A stretch of DNA of 64,000 nt, taken from a virus. The DNA is taken from positions 1 to 64,000 of IMG/VR virus record IMGVR_UViG_3300031576_000025. One strand, written 5' to 3'. Below are positions 16,059 to 57,164 of the stretch, one piece after another (position 1 is the stretch's first letter; every line of letters starts with the position of its first letter). A program made the translations under genes and the position numbers. A model generated the notes under the pieces. It was not told the DNA's origin. It was given only the letters and a program-made list of their open reading frames with translations, and did no database searches.

Positions 16059-16067
16059 GTGGCGGCC

Positions 16068-17756
16068 ATGGGGAACGCCGCCGACCTGCTGAAGTTCGAC
16101 CTGGCCGAACTGGGGGACCTGTTCCGCAGGAAGCCAGACGACCTGCCGGACCAAGACCTGCTGGCCATGGACTTCATGCTACACCGCGCGTGGTCTATCA
16201 AACGCGACGGCGGGAACGTCCACCTGGGGGAAAAATCCTGGTCCTTCGAGGACATGCTGGACCTGCACGCTTTGGTCAAGCAGACCATGGCGGCGCGCGG
16301 TTTCAAGCACGTGACGAAGGACGAATTGGACACGGCGACCGACCGGCTGCTGGCCGAACAGGCCGCCGCGGCTGCTGCCGCGCCCGCGGCGAAGGCCGCC
16401 GACCAGGCCGCGCCGCCGACCGCGGAAGCGCAGCTGGTGGGGATTGTCCTGGCGCGCCGCGGCGCGGCCGGGGCCTGGTCCTACACCTACGGCCTGGATT
16501 TCCAAAGCCAGCGCGTCCCCGGCAACGCTATCCGTTCCCACGCCTGCCGAATGTACTACGCGGTGGGGGACACGCCGCCGGACGCAACGGAGCTGGAAAT
16601 AGGGGACATGGTGGCCGTCGGATACGCCACCCTGGACATGGCCCGCGCCAGCGGCGGCGTGGTGGCCCTGTCGGTCGGCGGGGCCCGCGTTGCGGGCGGC
16701 AACGGCCGCCCGCGGCCCATGTCCATTGGCGAAGCGGTGAAGGCGGCGCGCAAGGCCGGGGCCTACCTGCCGGATAACCCCGGGCACGTCCCCATGCCGC
16801 CAGCCTCGGCAGACGACGGCGCGCCGGTGTCGAAAGCGGCCACCCCGGCCGCGGCGTTCGCGGACAACCCGCCAGAAGGCGGGCGGTACAAGTACGTCCT
16901 GCAAAGCCACTGGCGCGGCAAGACGGTCCACCACGACCTGCGCCTGCAAACGCGGGAAGCCGGGGCGCTGGTCGGGTGGACGCTGGCCAGCGAAATCCCG
17001 GGCGTCGTGAAGGACCCGGTGGAAACGCTGGCTGCCGCCGCGGAATGGTCAAGGCGCGGGGACGCCTACAAGCTGGACCTGGCGGCCGGGTCCTTCAAGG
17101 ACCGCCGAAACGCGGCAGGCAACGTCGTGCCAGCCCAGCTGCGCGCCTTCCCCAAAGCCGTGCAGCCAGCGGCCTGGCTGGGGGTGGAGGGCGTCACGGG
17201 GCCGTGGCCAGCGCCGGGGTCCACGCAGCAGTTCCGCGGCGTGTTCCGTATTGACGACGCAGGGGCCGTCGAATACGGCGCGCAGAAAGACGACTCGCAC
17301 GAATACTTCCTGCACGGAAAAATGCGCGGGCGCATTGTCTTTCACCGCTTGAACAGGTCCGCGCTGAAGGCAGCCGTTGACGGCGGCCAACTGGTCCCGC
17401 CGCTGGGTGCTGACGACACCTATGCCTGCATGGGCGACCTGGAAAAGCTGCTGCCGCCAAGCGAAGGCGACGAAGGCGGGGACGCTGGAACGGCGATTTG
17501 GACGGCGATAAAGCCGGTTGACCAGCGGCCAGTGGTGCTGTCGGACGGGGCGGTGAAGAAGCGGTGGGTCCCGCCAGCTGGTGTGTCCGCGTTGCCAGCT
17601 TCGGTGCGTGACCGCGTGCCTGGTGGGCTGCGGTATTGGTCCGAAACAGACGCCGCGGAAAGGCTGGCGGTGCGCGACGAATTGGTGGCCGCGCTGGCGG
17701 ACGGAAATGTGAAGCTGGACTTTGCCGCGTTGGTCGGCCCGACGACAGAAAAATAA
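16068..17756 (+). CDS. Head-region protein with LigD phosphoesterase-like domain
   Basis: A 562-residue protein encoded between portal and protease. The N-terminal helical part is followed by an Ala-rich linker and a beta-rich domain (about 125-220). From about residue 273 it matches the 3'-phosphoesterase domain of DNA ligase D: YVLQSHWRGKTVHHDLRL, giving H281, H288, D290 and R292 in the order and near-spacing of the active site, then GWTLASE, and at the domain end FLHGKMRGRIVFHRL. The EDHP motif carrying a further catalytic His is not evident, so activity is uncertain. An agent that trims or holds DNA ends in the head is conceivable but unproven. ATG 16068 has aggtgg upstream; GTG 16059 is an alternative. 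Confidence 0.7.
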   Translation: MGNAADLLKFDLAELGDLFRRKPDDLPDQDLLAMDFMLHRAWSIKRDGGNVHLGEKSWSFEDMLDLHALVKQTMAARGFKHVTKDELDTATDRLLAEQAAAAAAAPAAKAADQAAPPTAEAQLVGIVLARRGAAGAWSYTYGLDFQSQRVPGNAIRSHACRMYYAVGDTPPDATELEIGDMVAVGYATLDMARASGGVVALSVGGARVAGGNGRPRPMSIGEAVKAARKAGAYLPDNPGHVPMPPASADDGAPVSKAATPAAAFADNPPEGGRYKYVLQSHWRGKTVHHDLRLQTREAGALVGWTLASEIPGVVKDPVETLAAAAEWSRRGDAYKLDLAAGSFKDRRNAAGNVVPAQLRAFPKAVQPAAWLGVEGVTGPWPAPGSTQQFRGVFRIDDAGAVEYGAQKDDSHEYFLHGKMRGRIVFHRLNRSALKAAVDGGQLVPPLGADDTYACMGDLEKLLPPSEGDEGGDAGTAIWTAIKPVDQRPVVLSDGAVKKRWVPPAGVSALPASVRDRVPGGLRYWSETDAAERLAVRDELVAALADGNVKLDFAALVGPTTEK

Positions 17757-19085: not shown

Positions 19086-20009
19086 ATGAAGAACGACCTC
19101 GAAGAGCTCAAGAAGGCCCTGGACACGGCCGCGGCCGGGTCCGCCCTCAACCAGCCCGCCATCGACAAGGTGCTGGCGGAAATCATCGAGCGGAACAACC
19201 CGCTGCGCATGAACTTCCCCCGCAAGCCCGGCAGCGGCAGCGCGTCCATCCACAACCAGCGCACCGCGCGCACGGACACCGGCGAGGACGGGGCCAAGTT
19301 CGTCAACGACACCGAGGAGCCGACCGAGTCCCGGGGCGTCTACGGCCAGGCGTCTTTCGCCTACAAGACCATCCTGCGCCGCGGCAAGGTCACCCGCAAG
19401 CTGCAAGCCCAGGGCAAGTCCCTGCTGGACATCGAGGCCGAAGAAATCGAGAACGCGCTTCAGGACGTGCGCGACATCGAGGAGCAGAACCTCATCGTGG
19501 GCGACAGCGCCGCGAACGCAAAGCAGTTCGACGGCCTGCGCAAGCTGGTCCCGGCCGGGCAGCAGAAGGCCGCGGGCACGAACGGCGGCGCGCTGTCGCT
19601 GAAGCTGCTGGACGAAACCATCGACCTGGTCATCGGGAACCCTTCGATGATTATCATGTCCAAGGCCATGTCGCGCGACCTGAACGCGCTGCTTCAGGCG
19701 CAGCAGCGGTTCCAGGAGACGGCGGAAGTCAACGGCGGGTTCCGGGTCCCGACCTACCAGGGCATCCCCATCTTCAAGACCATCTGGCAGCCCACCAACG
19801 AGGTGCAGGGCACGTCCAGCGTCACCCAGTCGCTCTACGTCCTCGAAACCGGCCCCGACCTGTTCACGTCGGTGCTGACGGAGCTGACGATGGAACGGCT
19901 GGCGAAGAAGTCCAGCCAGGGCGCGGAATTCGACATCTTCGAGGACCTGTCTTTGGTCCTGAAGAACCCGTTGAAGGCCGCGCGCCTCAAGGGCCTGACG
20001 CTCGCGTAA
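19086..20009 (+). CDS. Major capsid protein, HK97 fold
   Basis: A 307-residue protein with an excellent ribosome binding site (aaggaga). Length and order fit an HK97-fold capsid subunit: a helical N-terminal arm, RMNFPRKPGSGSASIHNQ, TEEPTESRGVYGQASFAYKT resembling the E-loop, ILRRGKVTRKLQAQG, LDIEAEEIENALQDVRDIEE spine helix and NLIVGDSAANAKQFDGLRKL, typical of the P and A domains. Position directly after the protease supports this. Codon use is strongly optimised for C/G-ending codons, as expected for the most abundant virion protein. Confidence 0.93.
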   Translation: MKNDLEELKKALDTAAAGSALNQPAIDKVLAEIIERNNPLRMNFPRKPGSGSASIHNQRTARTDTGEDGAKFVNDTEEPTESRGVYGQASFAYKTILRRGKVTRKLQAQGKSLLDIEAEEIENALQDVRDIEEQNLIVGDSAANAKQFDGLRKLVPAGQQKAAGTNGGALSLKLLDETIDLVIGNPSMIIMSKAMSRDLNALLQAQQRFQETAEVNGGFRVPTYQGIPIFKTIWQPTNEVQGTSSVTQSLYVLETGPDLFTSVLTELTMERLAKKSSQGAEFDIFEDLSLVLKNPLKAARLKGLTLA

Positions 20010-44702: not shown

Positions 44703-45581
44703 CTAGGCCCGGAAGCCCGGGTGCGCAGCGGCGCAGGCCGCCGCCAGGTGGGTGACGGAAACCCTGGTGTAACGCTGGGTGGTGGTGATGCTGGCGTGGC
44801 CCAGGTAGCCCTGAATCGTCCGAATGTCGGCCCCGCCTTCCAGCATGTGGGTGGCGGCGCTGTGGCGCAGCTGGTGCGGGTGGACCGGCGCGGACAGCCC
44901 GGCGCGCTGCGCAAGCTGGCGCAGCACCCACCACACCGCCGCCCGGTCCAGGGGCTTGCCCCTGGGCGACAGCATGAGGGCTTCGGCGGCCGGGTAGCGC
45001 GCGGCCCGCGCGGCCATGTAGGCCCGCAGGGCGGCCACGGCACGCGGCCCGACCGGCAGCAGGCGTTCCTTCCCACCCTTCCCCTTGACCAGCACCGTGC
45101 TGTGGTCCAGGTCCACGTTCACCACCAGCAGGCCGCAAAGTTCTGACGCCCGCAGCCCGGCCACGTAAAGGACCAGCAGCAGGGCCTTGTTCCGCAGTTC
45201 AATGAAGCGGGTCCCAAAGGACTGGCCCAGCAGGCGGTCCATGTCCGACTGGTCCAGGGACTTGGGCAGGGGCAGCTTCGGCTGCTGCACGGACAAGCCC
45301 ACCGTTGGGTCAACAGCGGCCAGGCCGCGGGCCAGCAGCCAGCGGTGGTACCCGGTGGCCACGGCGACGTCCAGGGCGACCGTGGCCGGGGCCTTCCCAG
45401 CCGCCTGGCGCACGGTCAGGTAGCCCACCACGTCCGAGTGGGCGGCCGTTTCGGCGGCCTTCCCATGGGCCGCCAGGTGGGCCTGGTAGGCCGTCAGCGC
45501 CCTGCTGTAGGTGTCCAGGGTGGCCGGGGAACGCCCGCCCGCCTTCAGGTCCGCCAGGTACGCCGCCAGGTGCCCGTTCAT
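44703..45581 (-). CDS. int: Tyrosine integrase (XerC/D-like)
   Basis: A 292-residue site-specific recombinase. The N-terminal SAM-like core-binding domain (residues 1-85) precedes the catalytic domain, which has all active residues: R in VAGLRASEL, K in VKGKGGKERLLPV, HxLR in HPHQLRHSAAT, H in YLGHASI and nucleophile Y in TTQRYTRV. It is expected to integrate and excise phage DNA at attP/attB. The compact size with no extra arm-binding domain resembles Xer-type enzymes. ATG 45581 has gggggg upstream and overlaps the preceding gene's stop by 4 bases. It ends a leftward three-gene operon under an operator-bearing promoter. Confidence 0.93.
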   Translation of the reverse strand: MNGHLAAYLADLKAGGRSPATLDTYSRALTAYQAHLAAHGKAAETAAHSDVVGYLTVRQAAGKAPATVALDVAVATGYHRWLLARGLAAVDPTVGLSVQQPKLPLPKSLDQSDMDRLLGQSFGTRFIELRNKALLLVLYVAGLRASELCGLLVVNVDLDHSTVLVKGKGGKERLLPVGPRAVAALRAYMAARAARYPAAEALMLSPRGKPLDRAAVWWVLRQLAQRAGLSAPVHPHQLRHSAATHMLEGGADIRTIQGYLGHASITTTQRYTRVSVTHLAAACAAAHPGFRA

Positions 45582-45763
45582 GCCCGCCCCCCGTGCAGCT
45601 GCGCAGCCGCCGCGTCCACGCACGCCAGGTCAGCCGCGGCAATGGACAGGGCGCGCGCGGGGTCCTTGGCCATGTCCACATGATACTGCCCGCGCAGGTA
45701 GCCGTCCAGGGCCAGCTGCGCGGTGGTGTACGACTGCCTGGCCAGCCTGGTCCGCCGGGTCAC
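45578..45763 (-). CDS. Small helical protein in the integrase operon
   Basis: A 61-residue helical protein (SYTTAQLALDGYLRGQYHVD, ARALSIAAADLACVDAAAAQ) from GTG 45763. It overlaps both neighbours by 4 bases, so it is made with integrase. Excisionases and recombination directionality factors are often this size, but no winged-helix signature is seen. Confidence 0.55.
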   Translation of the reverse strand: MTRRTRLARQSYTTAQLALDGYLRGQYHVDMAKDPARALSIAAADLACVDAAAAQLHGGRA

Positions 45764-54826: not shown

Positions 54827-55023
54827 ATGCGGTTGCCAGCTGGATAAATCGGGACGGCAGCATGACCGTGCTGTGCATCGGCTGCGGGTTGACCGCCAAG
54901 GTTCTGAAACCAGTGCTTGACGCCATGCCGGACCAGGCCGCGCCGTTCGGGCCTGGGGAATTTGACCACGCTTGCAGGGCTGTGCTGCCAGGTTCCGGGC
55001 GGCCTGGGGGCAGCAATGGGTGA
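54823..55023 (+). CDS. Small CxxC protein, 66 aa
   Basis: A 66-residue protein from GTG 54823 (GTGA overlap with the loader). CIGCG near the middle and a later Cys (FDHACRAVLPG) could bind zinc. No family recognised. Confidence 0.5.
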   Translation: MNAVASWINRDGSMTVLCIGCGLTAKVLKPVLDAMPDQAAPFGPGEFDHACRAVLPGSGRPGGSNG

Positions 55024-56164
55024 CCAATCCAGCATCGAATGGACGGACGCAAGCTGGATGCCGGTGCGCGGCTGCGTGCGCGTAAGCCCTGGGTGCGTGA
55101 ACTGCTATGCCGAACGCATGGCCGCCACGCGGCTGGCGCACACCGACGCCTACCGGGGGCTGGCGGCCATGACCAAGGACGGTCCACGGTGGACCGGGGA
55201 AGTGCGCCTGTCCCCGGGGGAACTGGACCAGCCTATCAGGTGGACGCGCCCGCGCAAGATTTTCGTTTGCAGCATGGCAGACCTTTTCCACAAGGACGTG
55301 CCGGACGATTACCTGGACAAAGTCTTTGCGGCGGCGGCCTTGGCCCCCCAGCACGTGTTCCAAATCTTGACCAAGCGGGCCGAACGCCTGCCGGAATACT
55401 TCAACGCGGAAGGCCGCCGGGGCGCGGTGTGCAGCGACGGCGTGGCCGCGCTGGGCTATGACGGCGAAGCACAGGAAGCCGCCTACGCCAACGTGGAAGC
55501 CGGGGGCGGGTGGCCGCCGCAGAACGTGTGGGTTGGGGTGTCGGCGGAGGACCAGGACAACGCGGTGCGACGGATTGCCCTGCTGACGCAGACCAAGGCC
55601 CAGGTGCGCTGGGTGTCCGCAGAACCGCTGCTGGGCCCGGTGGACCTGTCGCCGTGGCTGTGGGGCCCCAAGACACTTGGGCTTGGCGGCGTGCCGCGCA
55701 GCGGCCTTCTGCACTGGGTAGTGGCTGGCGGGGAATCCGGGCCCGGGTCACGACCCATGCACCCGGCCTGGGCGAAGCTGCTGCGCGACCAATGCCAGGA
55801 CGCTGGGGTGGCCTATTTCTTCAAGCAGTGGGGGGCCTGGACGCCGGAGGTTCCGAACGGCGCGCCCTACACGTCCCTGGCGCTGTTCAATCAGAATGAG
55901 AACGGGGACAAGCCCATCCTGATAAAGAACCTGGAAGCGGACAGGCGGGCTGACTGGACCGAAGGACAGGCGGACGACACGCTTATGTTCCACGCGAACA
56001 AGAAGGCCACCGGCCGTGTGCTGGAAGGACGGACCTGGGACGAATACCCGGCCATGAAGTGCATTCACTGCGCACAGCCAGCGCAGCCAGGGACGACGCT
56101 GTGCGGCCCGGCCTGCTTGTCGCAATGGCAGGCCGACCGGCGGGAGGCGGCGCGTGCTGACTAG
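55016..56164 (+). CDS. DUF5131 (phage Gp37/Gp68) family protein
   Basis: A 382-residue protein. SIEWTDASWMPVRGCVRVSPGC contains the start of the family signature; C-x6-C-x2-C (GCVRVSPGCVNCYAER, about residues 17-32) resembles a radical-SAM-like cluster site. FQILTKRAERL, VWVGVSAEDQDNAVRRI, and WVVAGGESGPGSRPMHPAWA are also typical. The C-terminus adds a zinc-ribbon (KCIHC...LCGPAC). These phage proteins are widespread and their reaction is unknown. ATG 55016 overlaps the previous gene by 8 bases. Confidence 0.85.
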   Translation: MGDQSSIEWTDASWMPVRGCVRVSPGCVNCYAERMAATRLAHTDAYRGLAAMTKDGPRWTGEVRLSPGELDQPIRWTRPRKIFVCSMADLFHKDVPDDYLDKVFAAAALAPQHVFQILTKRAERLPEYFNAEGRRGAVCSDGVAALGYDGEAQEAAYANVEAGGGWPPQNVWVGVSAEDQDNAVRRIALLTQTKAQVRWVSAEPLLGPVDLSPWLWGPKTLGLGGVPRSGLLHWVVAGGESGPGSRPMHPAWAKLLRDQCQDAGVAYFFKQWGAWTPEVPNGAPYTSLALFNQNENGDKPILIKNLEADRRADWTEGQADDTLMFHANKKATGRVLEGRTWDEYPAMKCIHCAQPAQPGTTLCGPACLSQWQADRREAARAD

Positions 56165-56186
56165 CGGCCACGACGGCCAGGGTGCC

Positions 56187-57164
56187 ATGCCTGAAGATGC
56201 GCTGGCAGCGCAGCCTGACGCCGTGCCTGGACCGGCCAGCGCGGACGGCCAGAACGTGGACCTGTTCGGTGAACCAATAGACGACTTCAAGAGCGCGAAG
56301 GAACGATACGGCACCTGGCCGGTGACGGTGTGGGATTGCGACCTATCGGACCCGACCGTGCGCAAGATGAAGGACGCCATTGGGGACATTTGCAGCAGCC
56401 GCGCCGGGACCGGCAAGCTGGGCTACCAGTCCAAGTCCCGCGGCAGCGCGCGCGCCGGGTGCCTGCGCGAAGCGACGGACGACGCCAGCGTGTACGGCGG
56501 GAAAATAACGGAATCAATCTTCAACCCGGCCGTGGCCGCCTGGATTCTGAACCTGTATGCGCCGCGCACCAAGGACGCCATCTGCTATGACCCGTTCGCC
56601 GGGGGCGGCACCAGGGCAATCATGGCCGCCAAGCACGGCATGAAGTACATGGGCGTTGAAATCCGCCAGGCCGAAGTTGACGCGGTGGAACAGCGGTGCA
56701 AGGCGCTCGGGGTGGACAAGCAGGTGGGAATCATTTGCGGCGACAGCCGCACTGCCACCAAGGACCTTGAAGGCGGCTTCGCTGATTTCCTGCTGACCTG
56801 CCCGCCCTATTACGACCTGGAAACGTACGACGGCGGCCCCAACGATTTGAGCATGGCCCACACCTATGCCGAATTCGTGGCTGGTCTGAAGGACGTGGTG
56901 GAAGAATCCGCGCGCGTGCTGCGGCCAGGGGCGTTTAGCTGCTGGGTGGTTGGGCTGCACCGCAATGACGCCGGGGAAATCCTAGCCATGCACCACGACC
57001 TTGCGCGGCTGCACCAGGAAGCCGGATTCAGGTTCAAGGAAGAAGTGATTTTGCACCAGCGCAACAACGGGGCCATTCAGCGGGTGGGCCAGTTTGAAAA
57101 AGGGGACAAGCGGTTGGTGCGCATTCACGAATACCTGCTGGTGTTCGTGCGGGGGATTGAATGA
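56187..57164 (+). CDS. DNA methyltransferase (N4/N6 type)
   Basis: A 325-residue SAM-dependent methyltransferase. Motif I YDPFAGGGTRAIMAA (about residues 134-148) comes before motif IV TCPPYYD (about 204-210), followed by VLRPGAFSCWVVG. The PPY motif indicates amino methylation of adenine or cytosine. It may protect phage DNA from host restriction; no endonuclease is adjacent. The N-terminus (PEDALAAQPDAV) repeats a stretch of the helicase loader. GTG 56154 would add 11 residues and overlap the DUF5131 gene. Confidence 0.85.
   Translation: MPEDALAAQPDAVPGPASADGQNVDLFGEPIDDFKSAKERYGTWPVTVWDCDLSDPTVRKMKDAIGDICSSRAGTGKLGYQSKSRGSARAGCLREATDDASVYGGKITESIFNPAVAAWILNLYAPRTKDAICYDPFAGGGTRAIMAAKHGMKYMGVEIRQAEVDAVEQRCKALGVDKQVGIICGDSRTATKDLEGGFADFLLTCPPYYDLETYDGGPNDLSMAHTYAEFVAGLKDVVEESARVLRPGAFSCWVVGLHRNDAGEILAMHHDLARLHQEAGFRFKEEVILHQRNNGAIQRVGQFEKGDKRLVRIHEYLLVFVRGIE

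Follow-up and report, generated by a model that had tools for sequence, protein, structure and literature searches.

A head-operon protein of an environmental virus with a predicted LigD 3'-phosphoesterase fold and an altered active site

The fold of the 3'-phosphoesterase (PE) domain of DNA ligase D (LigD) is known from the repair of DNA breaks in bacteria and archaea. Its apparent presence in a protein encoded among viral head genes raises the question of whether the resemblance is real and, if so, what such a protein would do there. The protein, P0001, belongs to virus record IMGVR_UViG_3300031576_000025 (82,218 bases), whose positions 1 to 64,000 form the window analyzed here (a stretch of 64,000 nucleotides; Table 1). 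The P0001 open reading frame runs from an ATG at 16068 to a stop codon ending at 17756 and starts ten bases past the last stop-codon base of the gene for the fused portal and MuF protein; an in-frame GTG at 16059 comes immediately after that stop codon. The terminase large subunit gene immediately precedes the portal gene. A PF01068 search found no DNA ligase in the whole 82-kb record, and no Ku was found in this record or in 17 related virus records, some of them partial, which does not exclude a Ku supplied by the host. Elsewhere in the same record, a DUF5131 protein (E 8e-91) is encoded beside an N6/N4 DNA methylase (E 2e-12) at 55016-57164, and the minus strand at 44703-45623 encodes a protein that by eye resembles the N-terminus of a tyrosine recombinase; a temperate virus is possible.

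Table 1. Features of P0001 and of the neighboring head genes in the window (positions are those of the window; residues are those of P0001).
Feature	Position	Strand	Evidence
Portal protein fused to MuF, upstream of P0001	13683..16058	+	Phage_portal E 8e-48; minor head/MuF part PHROGs E 4e-16
P0001 gene, 562-aa head-module protein	16068..17756	+	ORF calling, homologues
Small helical domain, residues ~22-84	16131..16319	+	Profile made without P0001, E 2e-9; helices in model
Ala/Pro-rich linker, in the place of the relatives' nucleotidyltransferase and DNA ligase domains	16344..16421	+	Low pLDDT at 93-95 and 101-118; relatives' architectures
OB-fold of DNA-ligase type, residues ~120-235	16425..16772	+	Profile of relatives' ligase-linked OB domains, P0001 left out, E 6e-6
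LigD 3'-phosphoesterase-like domain, residues ~264-432	16857..17363	+	Profile search, AlphaFold model, Foldseek, hhalign
Metal-site motif H281-x6-H288-x-D290-x-R292	16908..16943	+	Aligned with LigD His42, His48, Asp50, Arg52
Q366-P367-x-x-W370	17163..17177	+	Counterpart of LigD His84-Pro-x-x-Tyr88, with other residues for the catalytic His and Tyr
Family signature GAQKxxxHEYFLHG, residues 404-417	17277..17318	+	K407/E412/Y413 invariant
C-terminal segment PxVLSxxAVxKxWxPPxGxSALP, residues ~475-550	17490..17717	+	Specific to the viral family; served as search pattern
S78 prohead protease with Ala/Pro-rich scaffold-like tail, downstream of P0001	17810..19039	+	Peptidase_S78 E 1e-15
Major capsid protein, SU10 type	19086..20009	+	E 2e-8

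As a single sequence, P0001 matched nothing in Pfam, PHROGs, NCBIfam or the PDB sequences, so that the resemblance to LigD seen by eye would on its own have been weak evidence. In tblastn searches of 50,697 phage records with P0001, the sole relative was AJP62006 of the ANMV-1 virus, and the same result was obtained with the PE domain of another family member (L023) as query; neither a search of plasmids nor single-protein scans of viral contigs gave any relative. A two-sequence query (P0001 and AJP62006) detected relatives in 31 viral contigs, and a DNA pattern for the C-terminal signature produced 38 matches, some of them repeats. Another scan contributed locus L073, a genome scan two contigs from metagenome-assembled genomes (MAGs), and a phylum search three more Planctomycetota genomes. 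Altogether, the PE domain is also present in 47 other environmental-virus and MAG contigs, in the ANMV-1 virus and in those three genomes. Its carriers include the archaeal virus ANMV-1 and genomes of Archaeoglobales and Planctomycetota. Strong PE matches (E < 1e-10) were found in 49 loci including P0001 and ANMV-1, L073 and the three Planctomycetota genomes not being counted. The 37 distinct PE segments fall into 34 clusters at 90% identity, and the P0001 segment is at most 51%, and down to 28%, identical to the others.

With 19 to 37 of these relatives added, the LigD-PE match of the P0001 family lay far beyond chance. A profile of 19 relatives searched against the PDB gave only two matches at E <= 10, both of them archaeal LigD-PE structures (3p4h, E 0.017; 3p43, E 0.06). 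When the PE profile of the family was compared by hhalign with a profile of 20 cellular archaeal LigD-PE sequences (PF13298 was present in 30 of the 60 genomes scanned), the two aligned domain-wide with 97.1% probability (E 1.5e-10), and controls reached no more than 0.2% with shuffled columns and 0.3% with six other family domains included. The second PE copy found in relatives scored 98.7% against the cellular profile, and the third PE copy of L023 matched Pfam LigD_N with an E of 3.4e-6, but under the family cut-off. P0001 was also modeled with AlphaFold2 run on 21 sequences, and its PE part obtained a pLDDT of about 80-97 per ten-residue block, mostly >90. The sole PDB matches of this model in Foldseek at E <= 1e-3 were again archaeal LigD-PE structures (3p43, E 2.3e-5, TM 0.80 on target; 3p4h, E 8.3e-5, TM 0.71). 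A search of a viral structure library returned one strong match of unknown identity (A0A516LT18, E 1.7e-10). Profile-profile comparison and structure prediction with Foldseek thus show that residues ~264-432 of P0001 have the LigD 3'-phosphoesterase fold, the structure itself being a model prediction.

To describe the putative active site we counted residues in the 37 distinct, nearly complete PE segments, leaving out a divergent group of loci (L025-L032). In the LigD of P. aeruginosa, His42, His48 and Asp50 hold Mn, Arg52, His84 and Tyr88 hold a phosphate mimic, and mutation of His84 or Tyr88 inactivates the PE (PMC8656161). The P0001 sequence reads YVLQSH281WRGKTVH288HD290LR292, with LHGKMRGR at 415-422. 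H281, H288 and D290, which align with the Mn-binding triad, are invariant (37/37), and R292, aligned with the phosphate-contacting Arg52, occurs in 36/37 segments, the exception being a Met in ANMV-1. The spacing between H281 and H288 is one residue longer than that between His42 and His48. These four residues lie on two adjacent predicted strands (274-284 and 286-294), with H288, D290 and R292 at alternating positions. The position of His84 is occupied by Glu in 25/37 segments, by His in only 2 and by Q366 in P0001, and that of Tyr88 by Trp in all 37 (W370 in P0001); in place of EDHP, P0001 has KAVQP and its relatives mostly K-A-x-E-P. H411 is present in 35/37 segments, and residue 426 is His in P0001 versus Arg in nearly all relatives. 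As inferred from the alignment, the site of this family has kept its metal half and changed its phosphate half, and canonical catalysis cannot be assumed because His84 and Tyr88 are replaced.

These results bear on a preliminary description of the locus, made from the sequence alone, which had proposed a LigD PE-like domain beginning at H281. The proposal held, and the outcome that would have refuted it, a structure prediction without the PE fold, did not occur. Both the H...H-x-D-x-R arrangement and the closing LHGKMRGR segment on which it rested are present, and its failure to see the EDHP motif, which carries another catalytic histidine, was confirmed. Its further condition, that the His, Asp and Arg residues cluster, has only indirect support from the LigD alignment and the adjacent predicted strands, since no coordinates were measured. 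Whether the domain is an enzyme or a structural re-use of the fold, as that description had asked, remains undecided: the metal triad and the Arg are retained, whereas other residues replace His84 and Tyr88. It had also placed the gene in the head cluster between portal/MuF and protease, which held and proved to be conserved in dozens of viruses.

Wherever neighbors are visible, the PE gene lies between those for the portal and the prohead protease. In 27 loci and in the P0001 record, a portal gene on the same strand precedes the PE gene; the PE protein has the prohead protease as its C-terminal part in 17 loci, and the protease is encoded by the next gene in 24 loci and after P0001. Not every contig reaches both neighbors, and the counts include the divergent 837-aa group L025-L032 (4 portal cases and 7 protease cases). 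Four sampled protease fusions matched Peptidase_S78_2 with E 3e-26 to 2e-29. The same gene order is found in three Planctomycetota regions, and in ANMV-1 the PE gene lies between the portal gene and that of a protein with a head-morphogenesis (MuF-type) end. The ANMV-1 portal gene product (L001:1913-3193, AJP62005) is annotated as 'MutT-like phage hydrolase' and matches the portal family (Phage_portal_3 E 3e-22, phrog_146 E 2e-30). The group L025-L032 consists of near-identical DNA ligase proteins encoded upstream of the prohead protease, in which only the end of a PE-like domain is recognizable. We had also considered 'DNA methyltransferase/prohead protease' annotations in cultured phages as precedents for the fusion; these were dropped, as the two genes inspected encode only 212 aa and 349 aa. 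The shorter one, from Rhizobium phage RHph_Y1_11 (L071:4007-4645), probably took its name from a fused homologue.

The domains recognized in P0001 are only the helical, OB and PE domains (Table 1). The small helical domain (L-x-x-H-x-x-L-H ... R-G-x-x-H) occurs once or twice in many relatives and matched no Pfam family in the members scanned, and the OB region of the model gave weak Foldseek matches to archaeal DNA ligases. Many relatives contain in addition a ligase domain, which P0001 lacks; an example of their architecture, drawn from profiles built here, is helical, minimal nucleotidyltransferase, ligase, OB, PE, second PE copy (PE2) and prohead protease. In sampled relatives, Pfam recognized DNA_ligase_A_M (PF01068), MethyltransfD12 and Peptidase_S78_2. 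The KxDG motif is intact in most ligase-bearing relatives, and in a modeled ligase-OB-PE-PE2-protease chain (L014) the ligase part matches archaeal DNA ligases (E 1.6e-16). A Dam-type methylase is fused in relatives (Pfam E 7e-22), among them the Planctomycetota members, which combine an N-terminal methylase-like domain (identified by eye) with PE and the Dam-type methylase and have no ligase. Two of these members lie on contigs of 223,718 and 346,360 bases and are therefore probably prophages. Domain shuffling is frequent in the family, and the metal histidines have disappeared from the second PE copy of several relatives. Because the partners vary and the ligase is absent from the Planctomycetota members, the PE domain is the constant core of the family. 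P0001 is a reduced member (helical, OB, PE) without the ligase that near relatives have kept. The virus of locus L070 has the same type of capsid protein as the P0001 record, a PE domain about 50% identical to that of P0001, and a ligase; the ligase was therefore probably lost in the P0001 form. That P0001 is the reduced form of a family whose members also bear DNA ligase and DNA methylase domains, and in many cases are joined to the prohead protease, was beyond the reach of the preliminary description.

Several members carry further insertions or partners. In L010:4611-9818, an intein with a LAGLIDADG endonuclease (residues ~385-740) splits the ligase at its catalytic KYDG motif, and other intein-like inserts are visible in L022 and, for L034, in both the ligase and the PE domain. 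An 1814-aa member (L073:361-5805), whose gene lies directly before that of the prohead protease, has an apparent AAA+ ATPase-like insert (GPPGCGKT) between two PE copies. Metallo-beta-lactamase-like N-terminal domains with a THAHPDH-type motif, possibly nuclease-like partners, are present in L022:5253-9350, L034:2135-7081 and L112:4599-8237, and the N-termini of L008, L010 and L017 appear by eye to be tRNA-guanine transglycosylase-like or DUF6884-like.

With the LigD 3'-phosphoesterase superfamily (PF13298; 3p43, 3p4h, 3n9b), P0001 shares the fold, the whole-domain profile, the His-His-Asp triad and the Arg, and it has Gln at the Gln40 position. Apart from the replaced His84 and Tyr88 and the longer H-H spacing, its family differs by long inserts, an extra conserved C-terminal segment, a location in the head operon and the absence of a detected Ku. 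Another close counterpart is ANMV-1 AJP62006, annotated as 'ATP-dependent DNA ligase' without mention of its PE domain, and the text of the ANMV-1 genome paper does not mention a ligase (PMC4372165). AJP62006 shares homology with P0001 at the end of the OB region, in the PE domain and in the C-terminal segment (pairwise E 5e-27) and is likewise encoded after the portal and before the head-morphogenesis gene; unlike P0001, it has a minimal nucleotidyltransferase, a DNA ligase and a second PE copy, and a Met in place of Arg292. Bacterial and archaeal DNA ligase D likewise combines ligase and PE in one chain, as full-length relatives do, but the relatives have other partners, an added prohead protease and no Ku in the 18 records searched. 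Phage polyvalent proteins such as P1 Dar (PMC5512222) are also multi-domain and DNA-acting; their genes lie among those for the head, many contain a protease domain and a DNA methylase, and their packaging and delivery have been proposed (PMC5512222). Their trait of several enzymatic domains per chain beside portal/terminase virion genes is met by many relatives, P0001 having only its helical, OB and PE domains. The main text of the polyvalent survey names no LigD, DNA ligase or XkdF (PMC5512222), and the protease of the P0001 family is of the prohead S78/XkdF type; the survey also notes a paucity of polyvalent proteins in archaea (PMC5512222), whereas the P0001 family has archaeal virus and archaeal MAG members. 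With modest confidence we see P0001 as a polyvalent-type head protein with a divergent LigD-PE core, and its family, so far unnamed, as multi-domain DNA-processing proteins from the head module of tailed viruses.

What is shown for this family is homology, fold, conserved metal residues, gene order, and the fusion of relatives to protease and ligase. On balance we favor, by a modest margin, the reading that P0001 is a module directed to the head that processes DNA ends or binds DNA and may travel with the genome; packaging, delivery, substrate and activity are all inferred. Judging from established head-assembly biology, fusion or linkage to the prohead protease would bring the protein into the prohead, and the viral genome is the likely substrate because the recognized partner enzymes act on DNA. 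LigD PE heals 3' ends before ligation. In this view, the protein would enter the prohead with the protease, either by fusion or, for P0001, by assembly with the protease/scaffold of the next gene, and its OB and PE domains would bind viral DNA, either inside the head or once the DNA has been ejected. The PE domain would process blocked 3' ends, which the fused ligase of full-length relatives would then seal; P0001, which has no ligase, would bind 3' ends and clean them up for sealing by a host ligase, or do no more than bind. The P1 DarB methylase and T4 Alt are precedents for the packaging, into the head, of proteins with a DNA-protecting role or a function in the host (PMC5512222). Against this reading stand the family-wide replacement of His84 and Tyr88, the atypical Q366 and H426 of P0001, and the lack of a detected ligase or Ku in its 82-kb record. 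There is no proteomic evidence for packaging of the P0001 family, and the ligase of the relatives could conceivably be an ordinary replication enzyme shuffled into the head operon.

The most serious rival is a catalytically dead re-use of the fold, in which OB and PE-like barrel would form a DNA-binding or internal scaffold protein of the head. This is possible: the same residue changes and the missing ligase speak for it, and the second PE copies without metal histidines show that degeneration does occur. Conservation of the triad and of R292 across very divergent sequences is nevertheless hard to explain without a metal-dependent role, and the catalytic motifs of the ligase partners are intact. 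Given the changed active site, a pure DNA-binding role is quite possible. Alternatively, a prohead-tied module might mend the concatemer, at nicks and at blocked 3' ends, and thereby keep the terminase from stalling. The location between portal and protease genes is consistent with this idea, as protease fusion would put the enzyme in the prohead, but we consider it unlikely. Against it, the methylase partners fit protection of incoming DNA at least equally, and fused domains might be freed or degraded after protease maturation. Least probable of all, the gene could be an ordinary viral ligase/repair gene acting in the cytoplasm and standing in the head operon by chance. ATP-dependent DNA ligases are common in tailed viruses (see also PMC7824862), and the frequent shuffling would help this explanation; against it, viruses that differ widely share this location (ANMV-1, Archaeoglobales, Planctomycetota; about 34 clusters at 90% identity), and a covalent join to the prohead protease recurs in 17 loci.

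Beyond the favored head-targeted module, a bolder reading can be entertained only tentatively: the heads of tailed viruses of archaea and Planctomycetota may contain an end-repair kit that works without Ku, made of a DNA ligase and a variant 3'-phosphoesterase (Glu and Trp for LigD His84 and Tyr88), loaded via the prohead protease fusion and passed on together with the genome, which it would mend or protect as the genome enters the cell. Here, too, packaging, delivery and activity are inferred. In the open-licence literature searched, we found no paper describing the PE/ligase head-module arrangement, nor any account of a head module that includes a DNA ligase or an end-healing domain of LigD type fused to the prohead protease; reports in other journals could exist. 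Known head-packaged DNA-protecting or host-modifying proteins include methylases, ADP-ribosyltransferases and RNA polymerase. Environmental tailed-virus proteins that are now unannotated or labeled only 'DNA ligase' gain a family and a place from this analysis, and archaeal viruses or proviruses show the same gene arrangement as those of Planctomycetota. If active, the domain would represent a new catalytic variant of LigD phosphoesterase and would let the virus repair its own genome, on entering a cell or while packaging, independently of host NHEJ. That about 50 related viruses have the domain at the same location, often joined to a DNA ligase or DNA methylase and to the head protease, suggests that some viruses build DNA-mending or DNA-protecting enzymes into the head.
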